Part shown: positions 11,078 to 22,044 of the stretch, in pieces
How the letters are laid out: each line of letters begins with the position of its first letter
How positions within the stretch are numbered: position 1 is the first letter of the stretch
Assembly: GCA_030696315.1 (NCBI GenBank)
Contig: JAUYSM010000092.1
Coordinates: 1 to 35,619, forward strand
DNA: 35,619 bases
Reading direction: 5' to 3'
From: Pseudohongiella sp.
Lineage (GTDB): Bacteria > Pseudomonadota > Gammaproteobacteria > Pseudomonadales > Pseudohongiellaceae
Notes under the pieces: model-generated
Seen by the model: only the letters and a program-made list of their open reading frames with translations
What the model was told of the DNA's origin: nothing
Database searches by the model: none
Position numbers and translations under genes: made by a program

Positions 11078-11545
11078 ATGACAACACCGACTTACCACTG
11101 GGCCAGACTGCACGACCTGACTGGCCCTCACGTGCATGAAATACTGCAGGCACGTGAGTCGGTGTTTATTGTTGAGCAAAACTGCCCGTATCTGGATGCC
11201 GACGATTGCGACCCCCATGCATGGCACATGACTGGTCGCATCAACGGCAAACTTGCGTGTTATGTGCGCGTGGTAGACCCTGGCAAGAAATACCCGTACC
11301 CATCCATAGGCCGGGTATTGACCACCACAGAATTCCGCGGCTCCGGGCTGGGCCGTGCAATGATGCAAGAAGCCATCCGACACACCCATCAACTTTATCC
11401 CGGCCAGCCTATCCAGATTGGAGCCCAGGCGCATTTGTACGCGTTCTATAACGCTTTGGGTTTTGAGCAAATCAGTGATGAATACCTGGAAGACGGCATT
11501 CCGCACATACTGATGCTAAAACAGTTCAACCAACTCAGTCTGTAG
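11078..11545 (+). CDS. elaA: ElaA-family GNAT N-acetyltransferase
   Basis: Small cytoplasmic GNAT acyltransferase, 155 aa, strongly resembling E. coli ElaA. It has VFIVEQNCPYLDAD (residues 29-42), IGRVLTTTEFRGSGLG with the acetyl-CoA pyrophosphate loop at 87-92, the IGAQAHLYAFYNALGF segment, and the closing EDGIPHI motif. The natural acceptor of ElaA proteins is not established. ATG at 11078 is chosen because homologous sequence starts there. A longer frame from 11030 would run inside valS in another frame. The 3' end overlaps the convergent serine hydrolase by 30 bp, which is tight packing for two unrelated genes. Confidence 0.9.
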   Translation: MTTPTYHWARLHDLTGPHVHEILQARESVFIVEQNCPYLDADDCDPHAWHMTGRINGKLACYVRVVDPGKKYPYPSIGRVLTTTEFRGSGLGRAMMQEAIRHTHQLYPGQPIQIGAQAHLYAFYNALGFEQISDEYLEDGIPHILMLKQFNQLSL

Positions 11546-12712
11546 CGAAGAAAAATCCTGAAATGTCGTCAAAGTAGTGTTCGTCGTCAACGCGATGACC
11601 ATTGATTGGCTGCGTTGATCGTTTTCCGGGTAAACAGCCAGCCACGCCATCGAACCTTTTGACACACCGCCGTGATGTGCATAACCCAACGCAGCATTCC
11701 ATCGCCAGGTGATTGCATAAGACTGCTCATTGATGGTGCCAGAACTCAGGGTCTGAGGCTGCCAAAACAATTGCCGGGTTTCTTCACTGATAAAGTCCGG
11801 ATCCAGCCACGCGGAGCCGAGTTTTACAAGATCCTCAGGCGTCGACATAAAACCGCCACCTGGCAACTTATTACTTAAATCAACACGTCGCCATGGTTTC
11901 GCCTGTCCGTCACTGGTCTGATAAAACTGTGCTCTTGCGCCGGTTTCAACATCGGGCACAGGTGAATCCAACGCAAGTGGGTCCAACACTGTTTCCTCGA
12001 CCAATTGCCTGAAAGGTTTACCTGCCACTTCCTGCAAGACGGTTGCAATCAATAGCGCTCCAAATGAGGAGTATTCAAAATCAGTGCCCGGGGCAAAACG
12101 TTGCGGGCTGCCATCAAACAAGCCAAGACTTTGACGAACATCGATATGCTGACGACGAAGTGCCATGGACTGATACAAACCCAACAGATCTCGATTAGTT
12201 CCATATTCTGGCAATCCGGCCATGTGTGATGCCAGTTGCCGTAAGGTCAGTTTTTGCCAGTCAGGGTTGGGTAAATTGGCAACATAACGACCAATAGGTT
12301 CATCTAAATCGACCAGTCCGGCATCCAACATGCGCGCCAGTACCGTACCGGTTACCGGTTTCGAGGTAGAACCAATGCGATATAGAGTCTTGTTGGTCGC
12401 TGGTATAGCGTGCTCAATGTCTGCCCAACCCACGCTGCTGCTCCAGACCAGTTTACCGTCGATGGCGATGGCAGCGGACAAAGACGGCACACCGATCGCA
12501 GCCTGATGTGTACGCAGCAGCAGACAAGCCCTTTCCGCCACATCAGCTACCGAACTTTCAAGCACGCCAACCTGGCAACTTTGCGCATCAGGGACAGACT
12601 GCCAACCCCAAGGTGCACGCAATCGGGCACGATCTTCTGCCAAAAAGCCGTAAGCAGGCCAAAGCAAATAGGTAACCAAACCAACAAGAGCAAACATCAT
12701 CAAACGCAGCAT
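11516..12712 (-). CDS. Beta-lactamase-fold serine hydrolase (S12), membrane-anchored
   Basis: Serine hydrolase of the class C beta-lactamase / DD-peptidase / esterase fold, 398 aa, with one N-terminal hydrophobic segment (about residues 4-22) that should anchor or export it to the periplasm. With numbering from ATG 12712 the SxxK motif is STSK (Ser115, Lys118), the YxN-like motif is Tyr214-Ser-Ser (Asn replaced by Ser), and HGG at 347-349 stands in the KTG position. The substrate could be a peptide, an ester or cell wall; beta-lactamase activity is not implied. AGGAG at 12722-12726 sits 9 bp before ATG 12712, so I prefer that to the in-frame TTG at 12721, which is directly next to AGGAG. It follows the AraC-type gene by about 80 bp on the same strand and is likely in its transcription unit or control. 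Confidence 0.8.
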   Translation of the reverse strand: MLRLMMFALVGLVTYLLWPAYGFLAEDRARLRAPWGWQSVPDAQSCQVGVLESSVADVAERACLLLRTHQAAIGVPSLSAAIAIDGKLVWSSSVGWADIEHAIPATNKTLYRIGSTSKPVTGTVLARMLDAGLVDLDEPIGRYVANLPNPDWQKLTLRQLASHMAGLPEYGTNRDLLGLYQSMALRRQHIDVRQSLGLFDGSPQRFAPGTDFEYSSFGALLIATVLQEVAGKPFRQLVEETVLDPLALDSPVPDVETGARAQFYQTSDGQAKPWRRVDLSNKLPGGGFMSTPEDLVKLGSAWLDPDFISEETRQLFWQPQTLSSGTINEQSYAITWRWNAALGYAHHGGVSKGSMAWLAVYPENDQRSQSMVIALTTNTTLTTFQDFSSLQTELVELF

Positions 12713-12791
12713 ATCCTTCAACTCCTGACATCTAAACGGGAGTTAAAGTCTGTTATACGCTGTGCTACCGCGTCTTGCCGATTTCAAAAAT

Positions 12792-14268: not shown

Positions 14269-15675
14269 ATGAAAAAGCTACCATTCCCCGTGTTGTCAGC
14301 TATGGCAACGCGGTGGGTTTTATGCAGTGCCATGGTCCTGACGGCATCGTGTGTTACGGCTGCAGAACCTGCCTGGCAACTTCCTGACTCGCTGACTGAC
14401 AAACTGGCCGCGCTTGACGCCAGTCAACAGGGGTTTGTTACCCGTGGCGACTTCCTGCAGTTTATGCCCGCACGGCAAATGGAGTTTGAACTTGGCAATC
14501 GCGATGCGGCCTCCATGTCTGCATTGCTGGCTGATCTGTTATTGGTAGCCGGTGAGATGGGCTACAACCCGACTCGTGATATGGGCGCCATGCCGCTCAA
14601 CCTTGCCACACCTGACTTTAACTTTGGTGTCATTCTTCCGCCGATTTTGCGCAAAGACGTGCGCAGTCCCGGCCCTTTTAGCGTACACCGTTACCTGTTC
14701 CCTGAATCGGGTGTTCCAACTTTTGCCGGAGCCCCCGTCGCCATTTATCCCGAAGATCTGGTAGCTGGCGATGTAGACATTGCGATTGTTGGCATTCCCA
14801 ATGATTTAAGCAGCGGACGCCGAAATGCCAAGTTCGGGCCGCGCGCGATGCGCGCACTGGACACCATTGCCACACCAGACATCCAGACGCTGGTAGATCC
14901 CATGAAAGTGTTGTCCGTTGTGGACTACGGTGATTTTGCGGTGGATAACATGAGTACCGAGCGCACTATTGGCCACGTGACGGCTATGGTCGCTGAAACT
15001 GCAGGCACTGGCGCGATCCCGATGATGGTCGGTGGTGACACATCCATGCTCTACCCCGGTGTTAAGGGCGTTGCACAGGTGCACGGTAATGGCAACTTTG
15101 GCCTGGTGCATTTCAGCGCACATCCCGATGCAAACCGTCAGGCGGTGCACACGATTTCAGACGACCAAGCTCTCTTTCTGCTGATCGATGAAGGCATCGT
15201 GAACGGCGCTCACCTGATTACAGTAGGTTTGCGTGGTGATGCAGTGACCCTGGACACCCTGCAATGGTTACGTGATCAACGCGTGCGCTATCACACCATG
15301 GCAGAAGTTAATCAGACAGGTTATCGCGCAGTGATGGCGCGGGTGGTGGATGAACTCAGTGCTTTGCCGGAAAAATTGTTTGTGTCCATTGATGTCAGTG
15401 TGATCGAACCGGCCAACATGGTCGCTGCAGGTCGAATCGCGGCGAACGGGCTGAGTATTCAAGACGTCACCTCGACAATTCGCCATTTGTGTGCGGCGCG
15501 TGAGATTGTTGGTTTTGAAATCACAGATCTGGCGCCCATGATGGATTTTTCGCGCTTGTCGGCCGTCAATGCAAACGCAGTTCTGAACGCCTGCCTGGTG
15601 GGCATAGCCGCTCGGGAAGCCGGATTTACAGCGGATGCCGTGCATCCGTTAGCACTGGATCACGGTCAGGATTAA
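14269..15675 (+). CDS. Exported arginase/agmatinase-fold protein with degenerate metal site (pseudoenzyme candidate)
   Basis: Ureohydrolase-fold protein of 468 aa with a Sec-type signal (hydrophobic stretch about residues 16-30, likely cut after VTAA before EPAW). The arginase core starts near residue 165. Compared with the six manganese ligands of the family it keeps His285 and Asp287 (SAHPD) and Asp375 (SIDVS). It has Thr258 instead of His in GGDTS, Ser283 instead of the bridging Asp, and Ser377 instead of the last Asp. Catalysis by the usual mechanism looks unlikely. It retains a substrate-lobe motif, FGPRAMRAL. It is followed after 51 bp by an intact paralogue that shares its long N-terminal extension and signal peptide. 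It may be a structural or regulatory partner; this is inference. Confidence 0.8.
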   Translation: MKKLPFPVLSAMATRWVLCSAMVLTASCVTAAEPAWQLPDSLTDKLAALDASQQGFVTRGDFLQFMPARQMEFELGNRDAASMSALLADLLLVAGEMGYNPTRDMGAMPLNLATPDFNFGVILPPILRKDVRSPGPFSVHRYLFPESGVPTFAGAPVAIYPEDLVAGDVDIAIVGIPNDLSSGRRNAKFGPRAMRALDTIATPDIQTLVDPMKVLSVVDYGDFAVDNMSTERTIGHVTAMVAETAGTGAIPMMVGGDTSMLYPGVKGVAQVHGNGNFGLVHFSAHPDANRQAVHTISDDQALFLLIDEGIVNGAHLITVGLRGDAVTLDTLQWLRDQRVRYHTMAEVNQTGYRAVMARVVDELSALPEKLFVSIDVSVIEPANMVAAGRIAANGLSIQDVTSTIRHLCAAREIVGFEITDLAPMMDFSRLSAVNANAVLNACLVGIAAREAGFTADAVHPLALDHGQD

Positions 15676-15726
15676 GGGACTGCGGCTTATCATCGGGTGC
15701 TGGACAAAAAAACTGGAAACCAAATC

Positions 15727-17358
15727 ATGACTACCTCTACATTCAAAACCACGGCCTATCGACCACAACGGATGCTGCGCCCTTCTATGTTGCTGTTGGC
15801 CATCCTGAGCGCACAGGCAACGTTTGCCCAGGACAGTGATAGCGTCGCCCCGGCAGTTCCTCCGCAACCGGAGCATGTTGTGGGCAGCAACCCCTACCCG
15901 TTTGATACGGTTGATGCACGCATCAAACAGGCGCCTGCGATTGAATTGCCCGAGAGTGTGAATGACAAACTGGTGTTGCTGACCGAAGAACAGATCACCT
16001 TTCTGAAAAGTGGAGACGCACGCCGTTTTGCCGGCGATCCTGAAAAGACAGTCAAACATCTGGAAGAAAACACACCCGAGCAAATCAAGGCTTGGGTAGA
16101 AGCCATGCAGTCGGTGATTGCCAGCCGCGATTATGTTGAAGGCCGCGACCTGGCTAACATTCCCTTAAATACAGATTCCCCGCAGTTTAATGCCTGGCGA
16201 ATGCAACGACCGCGCTCAATGGACCCAGAACGTAAAGCCGGCCCCATTTCGCTGGGGCGTTATAACGGTAACGGCGGCCCGCCTACGTTTGGCGGTTTTC
16301 CACTGGCATTAACTAAAGAAGATTTGATTGCCGGCGAAGTGGATGTTGCGATTGTGGGTGCGCCACTGAATATGGGTTCCGGCTGGCGCGACTCGGGTGC
16401 ACAAGCCACCACTGACATGCGTGTCATGGGACGCGCGCTGGGTGGCATGGATCAGTATGTGCAAATTACACCCGGCAGCGTGCTGAATATTGTTGATTAC
16501 GGTGACATCGCCATGGACAACAACAGTACGGAACGCTCCATGCAGCATGTGCGCGACATTGTGCGTGAAATCGCGGAAACCGGCGCGGTGCCCGTCATCA
16601 TTGGTGGCGATCATTCTCTGGAATATCCTAACGTGGCAGCGCTTGCCGATGTGCATGGTAAAGAAAGAGTCTCCGTCATCCATTTTGACTCGCATTACGA
16701 TGCCTGGTGGGGAGATGCACACTTGATCAACCATGGCGCACCCATCTACCGATTGCTTAACGAGGGCCATGTGCGTGGCGCCGATTACATACAGGTTGGC
16801 CTACGCTCCAGCGGCCCTGATGAAGAAGCTTTTAAATGGATGCGCGAAATTGGCATGCGCTATCACACCATGGCAGAGGTTGAACAGCGTGGGTGGGATG
16901 CAGTGATTGATCGGGTTGTTGCTGAAGCCAGCGAAGAAGGCCGCAAGATTCATATTTCATTTGATATTGATGTGCTGGACCCGGCATTTGCAGTGGCAAC
17001 GGGCACACCCGTGTCCGGCGGCATCAGTATGCGCGAGGCCATTACCATTGTGCGACGCTTATGTGCAGAGTCCAATGTCATCAGTTTTGACCTTGTGGAG
17101 CTACATCCGGCGCTGGACCCAACTTATGCCACCACGTCCAACAGCGCTCATATCGTGAAAGCCTGTCTGACCGGACTCGCGATGCGCGAGGAAGGCATGA
17201 CCGCACCGCACTATCTCAGTCCGATTGCCTCCGAGCATGCAATCGACAATTATTATGGAGATCAGGATGAGTTTCTGAGACGGACCCAGGAACTTGAAGA
17301 AAAGGAACTTGATGAAAAGGAACTTGAAGAAAAAGACGAAGAAGAAACTGAAGAATGA
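15727..17358 (+). CDS. Exported arginase/agmatinase-family ureohydrolase, metal site intact
   Basis: Predicted periplasmic ureohydrolase of 543 aa that would hydrolyse a guanidino compound to urea and an amine. The substrate is not predictable. A signal peptide ends near ATFA before QDSD. All six metal ligands are present: His296 (GGDHS), Asp321, His323 and Asp325 (DSHYD), and Asp413 and Asp415 (SFDIDVLDP). A region of about 150 residues before the core is shared with the upstream paralogue, for example LPxSxxDKL and a conserved EDLxAGxVDxAIVG. The canonical GPxxIR motif of agmatinases is not kept. The C-terminus is a highly acidic Glu/Lys tail. ATG 15727 is chosen over GTG 15697, which has no ribosome site. 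Most agmatinases are cytoplasmic and about 300-350 aa, so export and length are unusual. Confidence 0.85.
   Translation: MTTSTFKTTAYRPQRMLRPSMLLLAILSAQATFAQDSDSVAPAVPPQPEHVVGSNPYPFDTVDARIKQAPAIELPESVNDKLVLLTEEQITFLKSGDARRFAGDPEKTVKHLEENTPEQIKAWVEAMQSVIASRDYVEGRDLANIPLNTDSPQFNAWRMQRPRSMDPERKAGPISLGRYNGNGGPPTFGGFPLALTKEDLIAGEVDVAIVGAPLNMGSGWRDSGAQATTDMRVMGRALGGMDQYVQITPGSVLNIVDYGDIAMDNNSTERSMQHVRDIVREIAETGAVPVIIGGDHSLEYPNVAALADVHGKERVSVIHFDSHYDAWWGDAHLINHGAPIYRLLNEGHVRGADYIQVGLRSSGPDEEAFKWMREIGMRYHTMAEVEQRGWDAVIDRVVAEASEEGRKIHISFDIDVLDPAFAVATGTPVSGGISMREAITIVRRLCAESNVISFDLVELHPALDPTYATTSNSAHIVKACLTGLAMREEGMTAPHYLSPIASEHAIDNYYGDQDEFLRRTQELEEKELDEKELEEKDEEETEE
17287..17331 (+). repeat. Three 15-bp in-frame repeats encoding an acidic tail
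   Basis: Three copies of a 15-bp unit close to AAGGAACTTGAAGAA encode QELEE, KELDE and KELEE (residues 521-535). A further Asp/Glu run follows to the stop. In-frame minisatellites of this kind can change copy number between strains. The tail should be a short charged helix. Confidence 0.75.
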
Positions 17359-17368
17359 CCGATGGGTT

Positions 17369-17914
17369 TTAAACAGGCTGTTGTGTGCCTGACGACACAG
17401 CAGTTCGCTTGAGTCGATTATTGGTATCACGACTGGTTTTGATCAAGGCATTGTTGTCTATTGCGCGGCTTGATTTGGCAAGTCGGTCGTAGAGCACTAC
17501 ATTCACTGTGGCCGCCAGATTCATACACCCGATGGTCGGCACAAACACCACCGCATGCGCCTGATCGACAATCGACTGTGGTATTGAGCCATCCTCAGGA
17601 CCAAACACATACAAGGCATTGTGGGGGTGCGTAAACTCAACCAGCGATTGCGCACCTTCCACAAATTCAACACAGACCACGTTGATATCAAGCGGCAAGT
17701 TCGCCAACAAATCATCATGCTGTATCAAGGGGATTTTACCAGCAAGATTCTTGGTATCCGTCTGATAGCTGGCAGCACGCGCAAACCGTTTGCCGGTGTA
17801 CCAGACTTCATTTACCTGGTAACAACCGGCAGCACGCAAAACAGAGCCCACATTAGCTGGGCTCTTTGGATCAAGCAGACCAATAATCAATTGGACTTGA
17901 CTGATGCTATCCAC
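17369..17914 (-). CDS. TrmH/SpoU-family RNA 2'-O-methyltransferase
   Basis: SPOUT-class methyltransferase of 181 aa, probably adding a 2'-O-methyl group to tRNA or rRNA using S-adenosylmethionine. The three SpoU motifs are visible: motif 1 SPANVGSVLRAAG (residues 18-30, with Asn21 and Arg27), motif 2 FGPEDGSI (104-111), and motif 3 in VPTIGCMNLAATVNVVLYD (125-143), which builds the trefoil knot that binds the cofactor. The target nucleotide is unknown. The start codon is GTG (17914) with a weak ribosome site. Its first 28 bp lie inside the 3' end of the DUF885 gene, so translation may be coupled. It converges on the ureohydrolase gene with only 10 bp between the stops. Confidence 0.85.
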   Translation of the reverse strand: MDSISQVQLIIGLLDPKSPANVGSVLRAAGCYQVNEVWYTGKRFARAASYQTDTKNLAGKIPLIQHDDLLANLPLDINVVCVEFVEGAQSLVEFTHPHNALYVFGPEDGSIPQSIVDQAHAVVFVPTIGCMNLAATVNVVLYDRLAKSSRAIDNNALIKTSRDTNNRLKRTAVSSGTQQPV

Positions 17915-19761
17915 TGATTGACTCGACGTTCAAGTAATGCCAGAGGCAAGGCGCCACCTAACAAAACGGTGTCATGAAACTCACGAATATCAAACGCATC
18001 ACCCAACTCAGCGCGGGCATGTGCGCGCAACTCAAGGAATTTATTCATACCAATCTTGTAGGATGTAGCCTGACCTGGCATCACAATATAACGCTGCACT
18101 TCAGAGCGAATCGCAGCCAACGGTACCGAAGAATTGTCAGCAAAATAGTCAACCGCTTGCTGCTCAGTCCAGCCTTTAGCGTGCAAACCGGTGTCTACAA
18201 CCAATCGGATAGCCCGCCACATTTCAGACGTCAGGCGTCCAAACTGTGAGTAGGGATCCACGTAGGTGTCTGGCATTTCACTGGCCAGATATTCTGAATA
18301 AAGCCCCCACCCTTCCGAGTAAGCGGTAAAACCCGCCTGGGTTCGGAACATGGGAATACCCTGCAGCTCCTGTGCAATGGCTATCTGCATGTGGTGACCC
18401 GGCAGCCCCTCGTGATAGGCAATCACTTCCATTTCCGACTTGGGCATGGCATTCATATCTGACAGGTGTGCGTAGTAGACGCCGGGACGCGAACCATCTG
18501 GCGTGCTGGGATAGTAGTGTTGAGCGGCGCCATCCTGTTCACGGAAGGCTTCAACACGTCTGACAACCAGATCCGCTTTAGGCAAGGTGCCAAAGTAATT
18601 TGGCAGCTCTGCTTTTATGTTTTCAATCGCTGCGGTGGCATCGTCAATGTAGGCCTGTCGACCGGCATCATTATTGGGGTAGTAAAAACGCTCGTCGTCC
18701 TTGGTTTCGCGCAGCATGACAAAAAAGTCCTGCAACGGGCCAGTGAATCCTGCCAGTTCCTTTACAGCCTCCATTTCGCTGCGCAGTCTGGCAACATCAG
18801 TCAACCCTATCTGATGAATTTCCTCCGCCGTCAGATTGGTTGTTGTCTGGTTGGCCAGCAAAAAGTTGTAGTACGCCAGGCCGTTGGGTTGTGATACCAG
18901 ACCAGTAGACACCTCAGGAATTTTTGCCTTTTCAGCCTCTGCCCAGGCAATAACCCGTTCATAAGCCGGGCCAAACGTTTCCATCATGGCGGTGCGAGCC
19001 TGCTCCAGCAGTTCATCAGCACGCAATTGATCCAATGTGCCGGCGGTTACCAGCGCCTGCACATCCGTTTTGGCATCCGACCAAAGCGCCGAATCACCAC
19101 CTTCTGTAAAGGGCGTTCCGGTAATCACGTTTTGTGCCTGTTGAATGACTCCATCCAAGGCAAAACCGGGGGTAATCACGCCCAGACGTGCCGACTCCTC
19201 TGCCTGCTCAATCAGCTGATCCAGCGCGCGCGCAGCTTCACGGATACGAGATATGAGCGCTTCGACATCAGCGGCATCTTCTACGGTATGAAAACTGATC
19301 AGAAACGTTGGCAAGAAGCTCTGGGCGCCATTCATCTGCTCAAAGGTCAGGCCGTTATTGCGGAACTCGACACCGCGTTCGGCCTGTTCATACTGGTACA
19401 TCCAGATATCCCAGGAAGTTTGTGTTTCGGCATCCAGCACGTTGTAATCGAACTCGCGCTGCATTTCCGCCACACTGGCACGCAACCATTCAAGCTGACG
19501 GTCAGCCCCTGCAACGGAAAAATCGTCGAGTTCATCATTGCGATCTTTGCGTCCTAAAAAAGTCAGCCCGATTGGACTCAGTTGCAGCTGTTCCTCAAAT
19601 TTGACATCAAACCATGCGTTGAGTCGCTCGGACTCGGTTTGCACAGACTGGGTGGCAAGCGCTCCAGCGTTTTCACTTGATGAAGAGGTGTCGGGTGCCG
19701 GAGCCTGCCCGCAGGCAAACAATGCAATAGCGATGGCGAGCGCTGTCATGGAATTGCGCAT
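17887..19761 (-). CDS. DUF885-family metallopeptidase, lipoprotein
   Basis: Protein of 624 aa with a lipoprotein signal: lipobox LFAC puts the acylated Cys at residue 17, so it should be anchored in the outer or inner membrane. DUF885 proteins carry a zinc-peptidase-like motif; here it is HEGLPGHH at residues 450-457, followed by AYSEGWGLYSEYLA, which supplies the downstream Glu. This layout resembles M32/M3-like peptidases. A role in periplasmic peptide degradation is likely; no substrate is known. ATG 19761 has AAGGA upstream. It is divergent from a second lipoprotein peptidase of family M13, with a 195-bp shared control region. Confidence 0.85.
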   Translation of the reverse strand: MRNSMTALAIAIALFACGQAPAPDTSSSSENAGALATQSVQTESERLNAWFDVKFEEQLQLSPIGLTFLGRKDRNDELDDFSVAGADRQLEWLRASVAEMQREFDYNVLDAETQTSWDIWMYQYEQAERGVEFRNNGLTFEQMNGAQSFLPTFLISFHTVEDAADVEALISRIREAARALDQLIEQAEESARLGVITPGFALDGVIQQAQNVITGTPFTEGGDSALWSDAKTDVQALVTAGTLDQLRADELLEQARTAMMETFGPAYERVIAWAEAEKAKIPEVSTGLVSQPNGLAYYNFLLANQTTTNLTAEEIHQIGLTDVARLRSEMEAVKELAGFTGPLQDFFVMLRETKDDERFYYPNNDAGRQAYIDDATAAIENIKAELPNYFGTLPKADLVVRRVEAFREQDGAAQHYYPSTPDGSRPGVYYAHLSDMNAMPKSEMEVIAYHEGLPGHHMQIAIAQELQGIPMFRTQAGFTAYSEGWGLYSEYLASEMPDTYVDPYSQFGRLTSEMWRAIRLVVDTGLHAKGWTEQQAVDYFADNSSVPLAAIRSEVQRYIVMPGQATSYKIGMNKFLELRAHARAELGDAFDIREFHDTVLLGGALPLALLERRVNQWIASVKSN

Positions 19762-19956: not shown

Positions 19957-22044
19957 ATGAAGAAGTCGTTCACCCTGGGCACAGCAGGCGTGGTGTTGGC
20001 TATTAGCCTTACCGCCTGTTCACCCGCAGAACAAGCACCTCAAAATACTGCCGCTGTTGAACAAAGCGAGCAGGCTAACCCTGTAGAGCAAACCCTGACG
20101 TCGGGACTGTTCCTTGACGATTTTGACAGAAGCGTGCGTCCACAAGACGATCTGTTCATGTTCGTCAATGGCGCTTGGTATAACAACACTGAGATACCGG
20201 CCGATCGCTCCACCTATGGGGCGTTTAATATGCTGGCGGAAGAAAATGAATTGCGCCTGCGCGGCATCATTGAAGACGCCATGGCTGAAGACGCGGCCCC
20301 TGGCAGCAATGCTCAGAAAATTGGCGACTTTTTTGCCAGTTACATGAACGAAGCGCGCATTGAAGAGCTGGGTTTGACACCCATTCAGCCAATGCTAGAT
20401 CGCATCGCTGGCGTTCAGAACCATGATGAACTGACTACTACCATGGCAGAACTGCGTAGCAGCGGGTTGAGTGAACCGTTTGGATTTTTTATCTCGACTG
20501 ATGCAAAAAACCCGGACATTTATGCCTTGCACTTGGGGCAGTCAGGCCTTGGACTACCTGATCGCGATTACTACTTTCGGGATACTGAAGATTTTTCCCG
20601 CATTCGTGATGAGTATGTGAAATACCTCGGCGCCATTCTGGCAGCTTCAGGCCATAGCGATGCCGCCGCAGCGGCGCAACGTATTTATGACCTGGAAGCG
20701 ACACTGGCCGGTCATCATTGGACACGTGCGGAAATGCGTGACGCTGAAGCACGTTATAACAAAATGACCATTGATGAGGTGCGCAGCCTGTTGGGCAGCA
20801 TCAGTTACGATGCGATGGCTGGGGTGGCAGGCATAGACCATGCGGAGTACGTCATAGTCAGCACACCATCCTATATCCAGGCGCTGGGGGAACTGTACGC
20901 TGATACCGATCTCCAGATCTGGAAGGACTATTTGCAAACACGACTGATGACCACGTTTGCGCCTCGGTTACATAAAGAAGTCGCTGATATCCACTTCAAT
21001 TTTTACGCCACTACCTTAAGCGGCACCCCTGAACAACAAGAGCGGTGGAAACGGGGTGTGCAGGCATCAAGTGGTGCGCTTGGTGAAGTATTGGGTCAGG
21101 CCTACGTAGAGCGATACTTTCCGCCTGCTGCCAAAGCTCGCATGAGCGAGTTGATTGATAACCTGCTGGCAGCCATGGAGGAATCCATCAGAGATCTTGA
21201 CTGGATGACTGCAGAAACCAAAGAAAAGGCGCTGGAAAAACTGAGCACCTTTACACCCAAAATTGGATACCCCGATGTCTGGAAAGATTATTCGGATCTG
21301 GAAGTCAGCGCAGATGATCTGATTGGCAACACCATCCGCACCAATCAGTTTGACTACTATAAAAATGTGGCAGACCTGGGCCAGCCAGTCGATCGCAATC
21401 GCTGGGGCATGACGCCACAAACCGTCAACGCCTACTACCGCCCGACTGCCAACGAGATCGTGTTTCCAGCCGGCATTTTGCAGCCTCCGTTTTTTGATAT
21501 GAATGCTGATGATGCCGTGAACTATGGCGGCATTGGTGCCGTCATAGGACACGAAATTGGTCACGGATTTGATGACCAGGGCTCACGCTACGACAGCAAC
21601 GGCAACTTGCAGAACTGGTGGACAGAACAGGATCGCGAGCAGTTTGAAGCAAAGGCCGATATTCTGGTCGCGCAATATGCAGAACATGAGCCATTGCCCG
21701 GTATGAATATCGACGGGCGCGTGTCGCTGGGTGAAAACATTGGCGACCATGTTGGCTTACTGAGTGCGTATCGCGCTTATCAAAAATCACTTGCTGGACA
21801 ACCCGCGCCTGTGTTGGATGGTTTTACCGGCGAGCAACGCTTTTTTATCAGCTGGGCACAAATCTGGAAAATTAAATTCCGGGACGATGCCATGCGTGCA
21901 CAGCTGGCTACCGGTCCGCACTCGCCCGGCAAATATCGCGCCCTGGCAGCACCGCGTAACATACCGGGCTTCTACGAGGCGTTTGATGTCAAAGAAGGAG
22001 ACGGCATGTATCTGCCACCTGAGCAGCGTGTGGTGCTTTGGTAG
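19957..22044 (+). CDS. M13-family zinc metallopeptidase (neprilysin/PepO-like), lipoprotein
   Basis: Lipoprotein endopeptidase of 695 aa that should cut short peptides in the periplasm or at the outer membrane. The lipobox LTAC places the Cys at residue 21. The zinc motif is HEIGH (532-536) within VIGHEIGHGFDDQG. The third ligand and its partner are Glu593 and Asp597 in GENIGD, equivalent to the GENxAD motif of neprilysin with Gly for Ala. NAYYRPTANEIVFPAGIL is the substrate-binding NAYY motif. Length is normal for bacterial M13. It is divergent from the DUF885 peptidase and convergent with the PhoH-like gene, 10 bp away. Confidence 0.93.
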   Translation: MKKSFTLGTAGVVLAISLTACSPAEQAPQNTAAVEQSEQANPVEQTLTSGLFLDDFDRSVRPQDDLFMFVNGAWYNNTEIPADRSTYGAFNMLAEENELRLRGIIEDAMAEDAAPGSNAQKIGDFFASYMNEARIEELGLTPIQPMLDRIAGVQNHDELTTTMAELRSSGLSEPFGFFISTDAKNPDIYALHLGQSGLGLPDRDYYFRDTEDFSRIRDEYVKYLGAILAASGHSDAAAAAQRIYDLEATLAGHHWTRAEMRDAEARYNKMTIDEVRSLLGSISYDAMAGVAGIDHAEYVIVSTPSYIQALGELYADTDLQIWKDYLQTRLMTTFAPRLHKEVADIHFNFYATTLSGTPEQQERWKRGVQASSGALGEVLGQAYVERYFPPAAKARMSELIDNLLAAMEESIRDLDWMTAETKEKALEKLSTFTPKIGYPDVWKDYSDLEVSADDLIGNTIRTNQFDYYKNVADLGQPVDRNRWGMTPQTVNAYYRPTANEIVFPAGILQPPFFDMNADDAVNYGGIGAVIGHEIGHGFDDQGSRYDSNGNLQNWWTEQDREQFEAKADILVAQYAEHEPLPGMNIDGRVSLGENIGDHVGLLSAYRAYQKSLAGQPAPVLDGFTGEQRFFISWAQIWKIKFRDDAMRAQLATGPHSPGKYRALAAPRNIPGFYEAFDVKEGDGMYLPPEQRVVLW

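Follow-up and report, generated by a model that had tools for sequence, protein, structure and literature searches.

Ureohydrolases are generally cytoplasmic enzymes, and one locus of Pseudohongiella sp. raises the question of what two ureohydrolase-fold proteins with export-like N-termini, encoded side by side, might do together. The locus lies on a 35,619-nucleotide stretch (assembly GCA_030696315.1, contig JAUYSM010000092.1, positions 1 to 35,619, forward strand), referred to here in full as the window, and comprises two neighbouring genes in the same direction, A and B. We consider it fairly probable that A and B together make up a single periplasmic, metal-dependent ureohydrolase, with B as its catalytic and A as its non-catalytic subunit, and that this enzyme releases urea from a guanidino compound.

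The open reading frame of A (14269–15675, + strand) encodes 468 amino acids and that of B (15727–17358, + strand) 543, although the start of B is uncertain, as a GTG at 15697 or an ATG downstream of the one at 15727 could also serve. The Pfam family Arginase (PF00491) covers residues 170–441 of A (E = 8.7 × 10−45) and 206–480 of B (E = 9.3 × 10−69). Ahead of this core stand 169 residues in A and 205 in B, signal included, of which roughly 130–170 in each protein lie between signal and core. Judged by eye, export signals occupy approximately residues 1–33 of A (14269–14367) and 1–35 of B (15727–15831), and both proteins are probably exported. The regions before the core share motifs (LPDSLTDKL in one and LPESVNDKL in the other; EDLVAGDVDIAIVG and EDLIAGEVDVAIVG). 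The two proteins are 36% identical over an alignment that includes the extension, and other genomes have the pair too; the likeness therefore goes beyond chance. A preliminary description of this DNA had proposed tandem paralogues with signal-like N-termini and a shared, motif-bearing extension, and in this it was right; it missed that B is ligand-complete, whereas A is without three metal ligands and two catalytic residues.

We summarize the active site by an eight-letter signature (six metal ligands, the proton-shuttle His and the catalytic Glu), the canonical form of which is HDHDDDHE. In an alignment, B keeps all six ligands, two His and four Asp: His296 (16612–16614), Asp321, His323 and Asp325 in DSHYD (16687–16701, after which comes a WWG loop), and Asp413 and Asp415 in DID (16963–16971). 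It also keeps His336 and Glu458, which, going by work on arginase, we take to be the proton shuttle and the substrate-binding catalytic Glu. The window's A reads TSHDDSDD instead: Thr replaces a ligand His (GGDTS for GGDHS, 15040–15042), SAHPD replaces D-x-H-x-D with loss of the first Asp (15115–15129), DVS replaces DxD with loss of the second Asp (15391–15399), and the other two catalytic residues have become Asp. B thus has the six ligands of an active enzyme and A does not.

The same division holds in other genomes, in which we distinguish type-1 pairs (A then B, as in the window) from type-2 pairs (B first). In what follows, L-numbers denote the loci compared, G-numbers the genomes of our samples (G000 being the window's genome) and C-numbers contigs. 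Every B sequence that covers the sites reads HDHDDDHE, and in every A sequence that covers them the equivalents of Asp415, His336 and Glu458 are S, D and D. TSHDDSDD is invariant in the type-1 A sequences fetched (the window, L010–L022, L030, L043–L047, L058, L059, L063, L064, L067 and L068, several of which share one genome), whereas type-2 A copies have lost two to five ligands, in sets that vary between copies. Distant A sequences are less degenerate, with four ligands kept in Komagataeibacter (HDHEDSDD) and five on a Novosphingobium plasmid (HDHDDSDD). To judge by its sequence, A is a conserved pseudoenzyme. The ratio of non-synonymous to synonymous substitution rates (dN/dS) is 0.042–0.151 for A in 7 comparisons and 0.026–0.110 for B in 6, with synonymous change close to saturation between the window and L010; values so far below 1 place A under purifying selection. 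Together with the open frames and the fixed signature, they rule out a decaying pseudogene. That A is a conserved pseudoenzyme makes the heteromer suggested in the preliminary description more likely, although not as a complex of two equal catalytic partners.

To measure how strictly the genes go together, we counted high-scoring matches to A and B profiles in 119 genomes of the window's family (the family sample), leaving out matches below 594 bits in one profile search and below 788 bits in the other. The rows set aside in this way comprise matches of these A and B genes to each other's profile, ordinary ureohydrolases, 17 single-copy relatives of shorter length, and fragments in G003, G066, G105 and G060 (C217). 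All 31 A copies have a B on the same strand within 400 nucleotides, and all 33 B copies have an A alongside. The pair is present in 15 of the 119 genomes, 14 of which have a type-1 and 9 a type-2 arrangement. Among named genomes, 28 of 30 loci carry B with an adjoining A (counting L023, in which the match to A is partial, and L033, in which the contig stops within A; the records L011 and L012 are almost the same); of the other two, L037 carries two copies, both intact, and L038 breaks off within B. An export-like N-terminus, again judged by eye, recurs among the rows compared, 32 for A and 34 for B with the window's own included, although two of the A rows (L013 and L036:13287) begin inside the gene. 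The preliminary description would have been undercut by homologues found mostly as single cytoplasmic enzymes; what we found instead are conserved pairs with export-like N-termini. In wider samples matches are rare, in 2 of 398 genomes of a phylum sample (the window's own included), 2 of 385 genomes of the class of G421 and 8 of 293 genomes of the order, four of them within the genus.

A maximum-likelihood tree of 84 proteins with ultrafast bootstrap places all A sequences, those from Alphaproteobacteria included, in one clade (bootstrap 99). Type-1 B (100), type-2 B (95) and type-2 A (100) also form clades, as does type-1 A, with a support of 99 without L019 and 45 with it. Because there is a single A clade that includes the Alphaproteobacteria, degeneration of the metal site seems to have set in once and early, although the long A branches could affect the tree. 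The topology fits duplication of the two genes together as one module. Distances for A and for B correlate across 14 type-1 loci (r = 0.90), as shared species history would also make them do, and A has evolved slightly faster (mean distance 0.337 compared with 0.277 for B).

Functional context comes from the type-2 pairs. The window's genome holds seven ureohydrolase genes: the window pair, four genes arranged as B-A-B-A (L008) and a single gene for a 319-amino-acid protein with intact ligands (L009). On contig C23 (L008:3663-9327) a gene for a TonB receptor precedes the B-A-B-A block, and a peptidyl-prolyl isomerase (PPIase)-like gene, HupE/UreJ and UrtA follow it, near the contig end; UrtBCDE and urease subunits score above curated cut-offs on C48 of the same genome (L066). 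In G022 the whole series runs uninterrupted on one strand as TonB, B, A, B, A, PPIase, HupE, UrtABCDE and urease genes (UreA, UreB and UreC were called as such, UreD and UreF by position and UreG by Pfam, and the UreE match is below the cut-off). Urease, counted by an alpha-subunit match with E < 1 × 10−50 (12 further genomes with weak matches of 20.7–24.4 bits being excluded), is found in 8 of 9 type-2 genomes compared with 5 of 110 other genomes of the family sample (P = 1.4 × 10−8), and within the genus in 8 of 9 compared with 0 of 6 (P = 0.0014), an association that is confounded by common descent in one genus. In Alphaproteobacteria, a Novosphingobium plasmid (L055) carries B-A with genes for HupE, PPIase and Urt proteins close by, on mixed strands. 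The two intact, export-like copies of L037 (Sphingomonadales) stand directly before UreD, UreA, UreB and UreC; this locus (L037:9866-14918) may picture the state before one copy degenerated. The large frames at the alphaproteobacterial pairs are without a Pfam hit, and a TonB neighbour is seen only at the gammaproteobacterial type-2 loci and at two of the three single-copy family loci opened (L060 and L062 have it, L061 does not). The receptors that precede the relatives in L060 and L062 share 43–44% identity with the type-2 receptor. In G003 (L065:6503-10807), a genome without urease, a truncated B follows a TonB receptor that shares 95% identity with the L008 receptor, a probable remnant of a lost type-2 block. 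No guanidine riboswitch reaches the Rfam gathering score in the window, L008, L011, L031, L037, L055 or L066. Matches to the Rfam 5′ ureB small RNA lie antisense over urease coding sequence (L066:6080-6366 and L037:14556-14844) and probably reflect conservation of that coding sequence.

A TonB receptor gene before the type-2 pairs and genes for a urea ATP-binding cassette transporter after them fit a reaction in the periplasm. In arginase chemistry two metal ions activate a water molecule, the guanidino carbon is attacked and urea leaves. B would cleave the guanidino group of a small substrate in this manner, at an arginase-type binuclear metal site, giving urea and an amine; A, which retains the fold but could not hold the metal pair, would act as a structural or activating partner, like the beta subunit of metformin hydrolase. 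In the type-2 system the TonB receptor would bring the substrate into the periplasm, the B-A pairs would cut it there, UrtABCDE would import the urea and cytoplasmic urease would turn it into ammonia. From the ligand contrast, the strict pairing, the purifying selection and the type-2 context, all read directly from the data, and from export-like N-termini judged by eye, we infer complex formation, catalysis, the kind of substrate, the metal (Mn or Ni), the periplasmic location and the cargo of the receptor. The type-1 pair probably carries out the same chemistry on a different substrate, as the WWG loop in all 14 type-1 B rows suggests. More tentatively, and with a chance that we put somewhat short of even, the whole would amount to extracytoplasmic nitrogen scavenging: a guanidino compound taken up through TonB would be split in the periplasm by an old enzyme–pseudoenzyme that is independent of metformin hydrolase, only urea would enter the cell, and the module would have been copied for parallel substrates, the window's type-1 pair being one such copy. 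The periplasmic guanidino hydrolysis with urea release envisaged in the preliminary description accordingly gains urea-transporter and urease genes at the paralogous block, but no such link at the window pair itself.

Several observations weigh against the proposal of a two-subunit periplasmic enzyme. Type-1 A still has three ligands (His, Asp and Asp), with which one metal ion might bind. In G028 and G045 the type-2 block is B-A-B, with two B genes to one A, and these blocks account for the surplus of B over A copies. In 17 family genomes there is a shorter relative whose match to the B profile begins, in most cases, near position 100; the three opened (L060–L062) have no partner, their ligands are intact and their N-termini are export-like. 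The same is true of the matches opened from outside the genus in the phylum, class and order samples: L049/L069 and L080 have the full extension, and four (L076 and L081–L083) are shorter and lack it. Such relatives, which run counter to the preliminary description, mean that a partner is required neither by export alone nor by the extension alone. The neighbours vary across type-1 loci, the window's own pair has no urea genes beside it, five of the six type-1-only genomes are without urease, and the structure models discussed below are of moderate confidence, which is low in the loop behind the extension.

One alternative, compatible with a heteromer, is that the type-1 pair trims guanidino groups from a peptide, a polyamine or another compound for carbon or detoxification, with urea as waste. 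The scarcity of urease in type-1-only genomes suits it, as do the WWG loop, which is replaced by other residues in type-2 B, and the fact that no transporter was seen to recur next to type-1 pairs. Among type-1 loci, however, L019/L064 (one record) alone lies next to PPIase and HupE genes of the kinds found in the type-2 operon. We regard this account as unlikely, though with a real minority share of the probability.

The remaining alternatives assign A another role. A could be an exported sensor or binding protein for a guanidino compound or urea, independent of B, for instance a lipoprotein receptor. A fixed degenerate site in type-1 A is what a retained pocket would produce, and a lipobox pattern occurs in 8 of the 32 A rows and in none of the 34 B rows. 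The window's A is not among the eight, which include the A proteins of L008:3663-5063, L010:147-1589 and L024:11254-12693; A may be membrane-anchored in some lineages. A free-standing sensor sits poorly with an A that is always beside B in the family sample, with type-1 and type-2 groups that appear in the A and B parts of the tree alike, with the lack of a recurrent partner at type-1 pairs and with a lipobox that is not general in A, and we rate it improbable. B could instead be a stand-alone periplasmic ureohydrolase, with A a chaperone or scaffold for its folding or stability during export and no effect on catalysis. The unpaired, ligand-intact relatives with export-like N-termini and the two blocks with two B per A would then be expected; yet the unpaired relatives placed in the tree fall outside the paired gammaproteobacterial B clades, and a high-scoring B is never found without A in the family sample, and we rate this account about as improbable as the sensor. 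Least credible is an A that is itself catalytic on another bond, with a single metal ion or an altered site (His285, Asp287 and Asp375 being kept): half of the ligands persist in type-1 A, and more in Komagataeibacter and Novosphingobium, but the proton-shuttle His and catalytic Glu are Asp in all A covering the sites, and type-2 copies have lost differing ligands, up to five of them.

The two-subunit proposal has a precedent in metformin hydrolase. Ureohydrolases are commonly homomultimers (PMC11271267), and the MefH heterohexamer, termed unprecedented in its family, is alpha2beta4, with two Ni ions in alpha and a metal-free beta in which four of the six ligands are replaced (PMC11399263); each subunit is inactive on its own (PMC11271267). 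MefH/MfmAB/MetCaCb and dimethylguanidine hydrolase (Pseudomonas and Aminobacter) resemble the pair in having adjacent genes, one subunit ligand-complete and the other ligand-poor, and metformin hydrolase loci likewise have HupE and urea genes close by (PMC11399263, PMC11271267). The preliminary description had known of no characterised system with this layout. As a gene pair of enzyme and pseudoenzyme there is one; our literature searches, in a collection with few subscription papers, found no exported or periplasmic ureohydrolase described, ‘signal peptide’ occurs nowhere in the main text of PMC11399263 and ‘periplasm’ nowhere in the available text of PMC11271267, and the available text of PMC11410670 contains neither term. 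Metal-free ‘noncanonical’ arginase-family pseudoenzymes of elusive function occur in eukaryotes and prokaryotes (PMC11271267); compared by description only, they include no exported pair named in the available text of that paper.

Profile scores allow a comparison with metformin hydrolase. Full-length A and B copies score about 340–490 bits against the other's three-row profile, and MefH chains 76–107 bits against larger A and B profiles, so A and B are closer to each other than either is to MefH. MefH beta outscores MefH alpha with both profiles (A, 95.6 compared with 77.0 bits; B, 106.5 compared with 98.9), and the helical extension of A and B lies outside the MefH profile matches. On these scores the pair is likely to have arisen independently of metformin hydrolase. 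The best PDB match of both profiles is the guanidine hydrolase 7esr (158 and 180 bits), above MefH; other best matches are formimidoylglutamase for A and guanidinobutyrase for B. GdmH/guanidinase (7esr and 9fek) are single-gene enzymes of the same fold as A and B; the match begins only at position 143 of the A profile and 150 of the B profile, and they do not share the extension. Guanidinobutyrase, guanidinopropionase and agmatinase (3nio, 3nip and 4dz4) share the fold, and the six ligands with B, but have no export-like signal, extension or partner gene of this kind. Neither protein reaches the cut-off of an NCBIfam family listed: the agmatinase model PRK02190 gives 114.5 bits for A and 185.8 for B (cut-off, 302), and four other families are likewise under theirs, leaving agmatinase, formimidoylglutamase and arginase without a qualifying match.

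Membership of the superfamily itself is plain for both proteins, from the PF00491 profile and the alpha-beta-alpha fold. AlphaFold2 models of A and B (mean predicted local distance difference test score, pLDDT, 76.6 and 73.4) have the same layout, a small helical bundle joined by a loop of poor prediction quality to the usual ureohydrolase fold, and Foldseek searches with the whole models listed 50 hits each, from the ureohydrolase superfamily throughout. The helical extension spans residues 40–104 of A (14386–14580; helices 40–48, 51–58, 61–64, 68–77, 80–97 and 101–104) and 76–134 of B (15952–16128; helices 76–82, 87–93, 96–102, 105–114 and 117–134). A profile search, as proposed in the preliminary description, found no Pfam match outside Arginase at E = 0.001 in either protein, and the PDB profile matches listed start at profile position 142 or later. 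The extension and the loop behind it are likely partner contacts. The shorter single-copy relatives (L060–L062, L076 and L081–L083) have export-like N-termini and are without the helical bundle. B also ends in an acidic tail (residues about 508–543, 17248–17355), predicted to be helical (513–542 in the model). Among plasmids, 658 records match B, with at least 80% of it covered in 1.

An AraC-type gene does lie upstream of A, divergently, next to the pair as the preliminary description noted, but it is not a conserved neighbour: it has no match at E = 1 × 10−8 in any locus outside the window's genome, in a comparison that omitted the own-genome loci L002–L007 and in which the contig of the closest relative (L010/L068) ends just upstream of A. 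A tie between the type-1 pair and urease is not significant (1 of 6 type-1-only compared with 4 of 104 pair-free genomes; Fisher's exact test, P = 0.25). Pfam identifies further hydrolases nearby, a beta-lactamase-family protein (11516–12721), a DUF885 protein (17887–19761) and an M13 peptidase (19957–22044); at E = 1 × 10−8 these have no match in the loci of other genomes, apart from beta-lactamase-family hits (24–26% identity) in L014, L015 and L022.

Pairing of enzyme and pseudoenzyme among ureohydrolases is known from metformin hydrolase; what would be new here is such a pair moved outside the cytoplasm. If our reading is correct, this would be a further case of the kind, apparently older and present in several copies, in which the less degenerate A subunits of Alphaproteobacteria display stages in the loss of a metal site. 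UrtABCDE and urease are the usual genes of urea use, and they appear as such after the type-2 block as well as in the window's genome; unlike the usual sets, these begin with a TonB receptor and pairs of export-like ureohydrolases, an arrangement that would open guanidino compounds to the cell. Because the type-2 operon names the importer of the product, the hypothesis is directly testable. The pair would then give these bacteria a way of gaining nitrogen from guanidino compounds, one that would go unnoticed if the genes were labelled simply ‘agmatinase family’.

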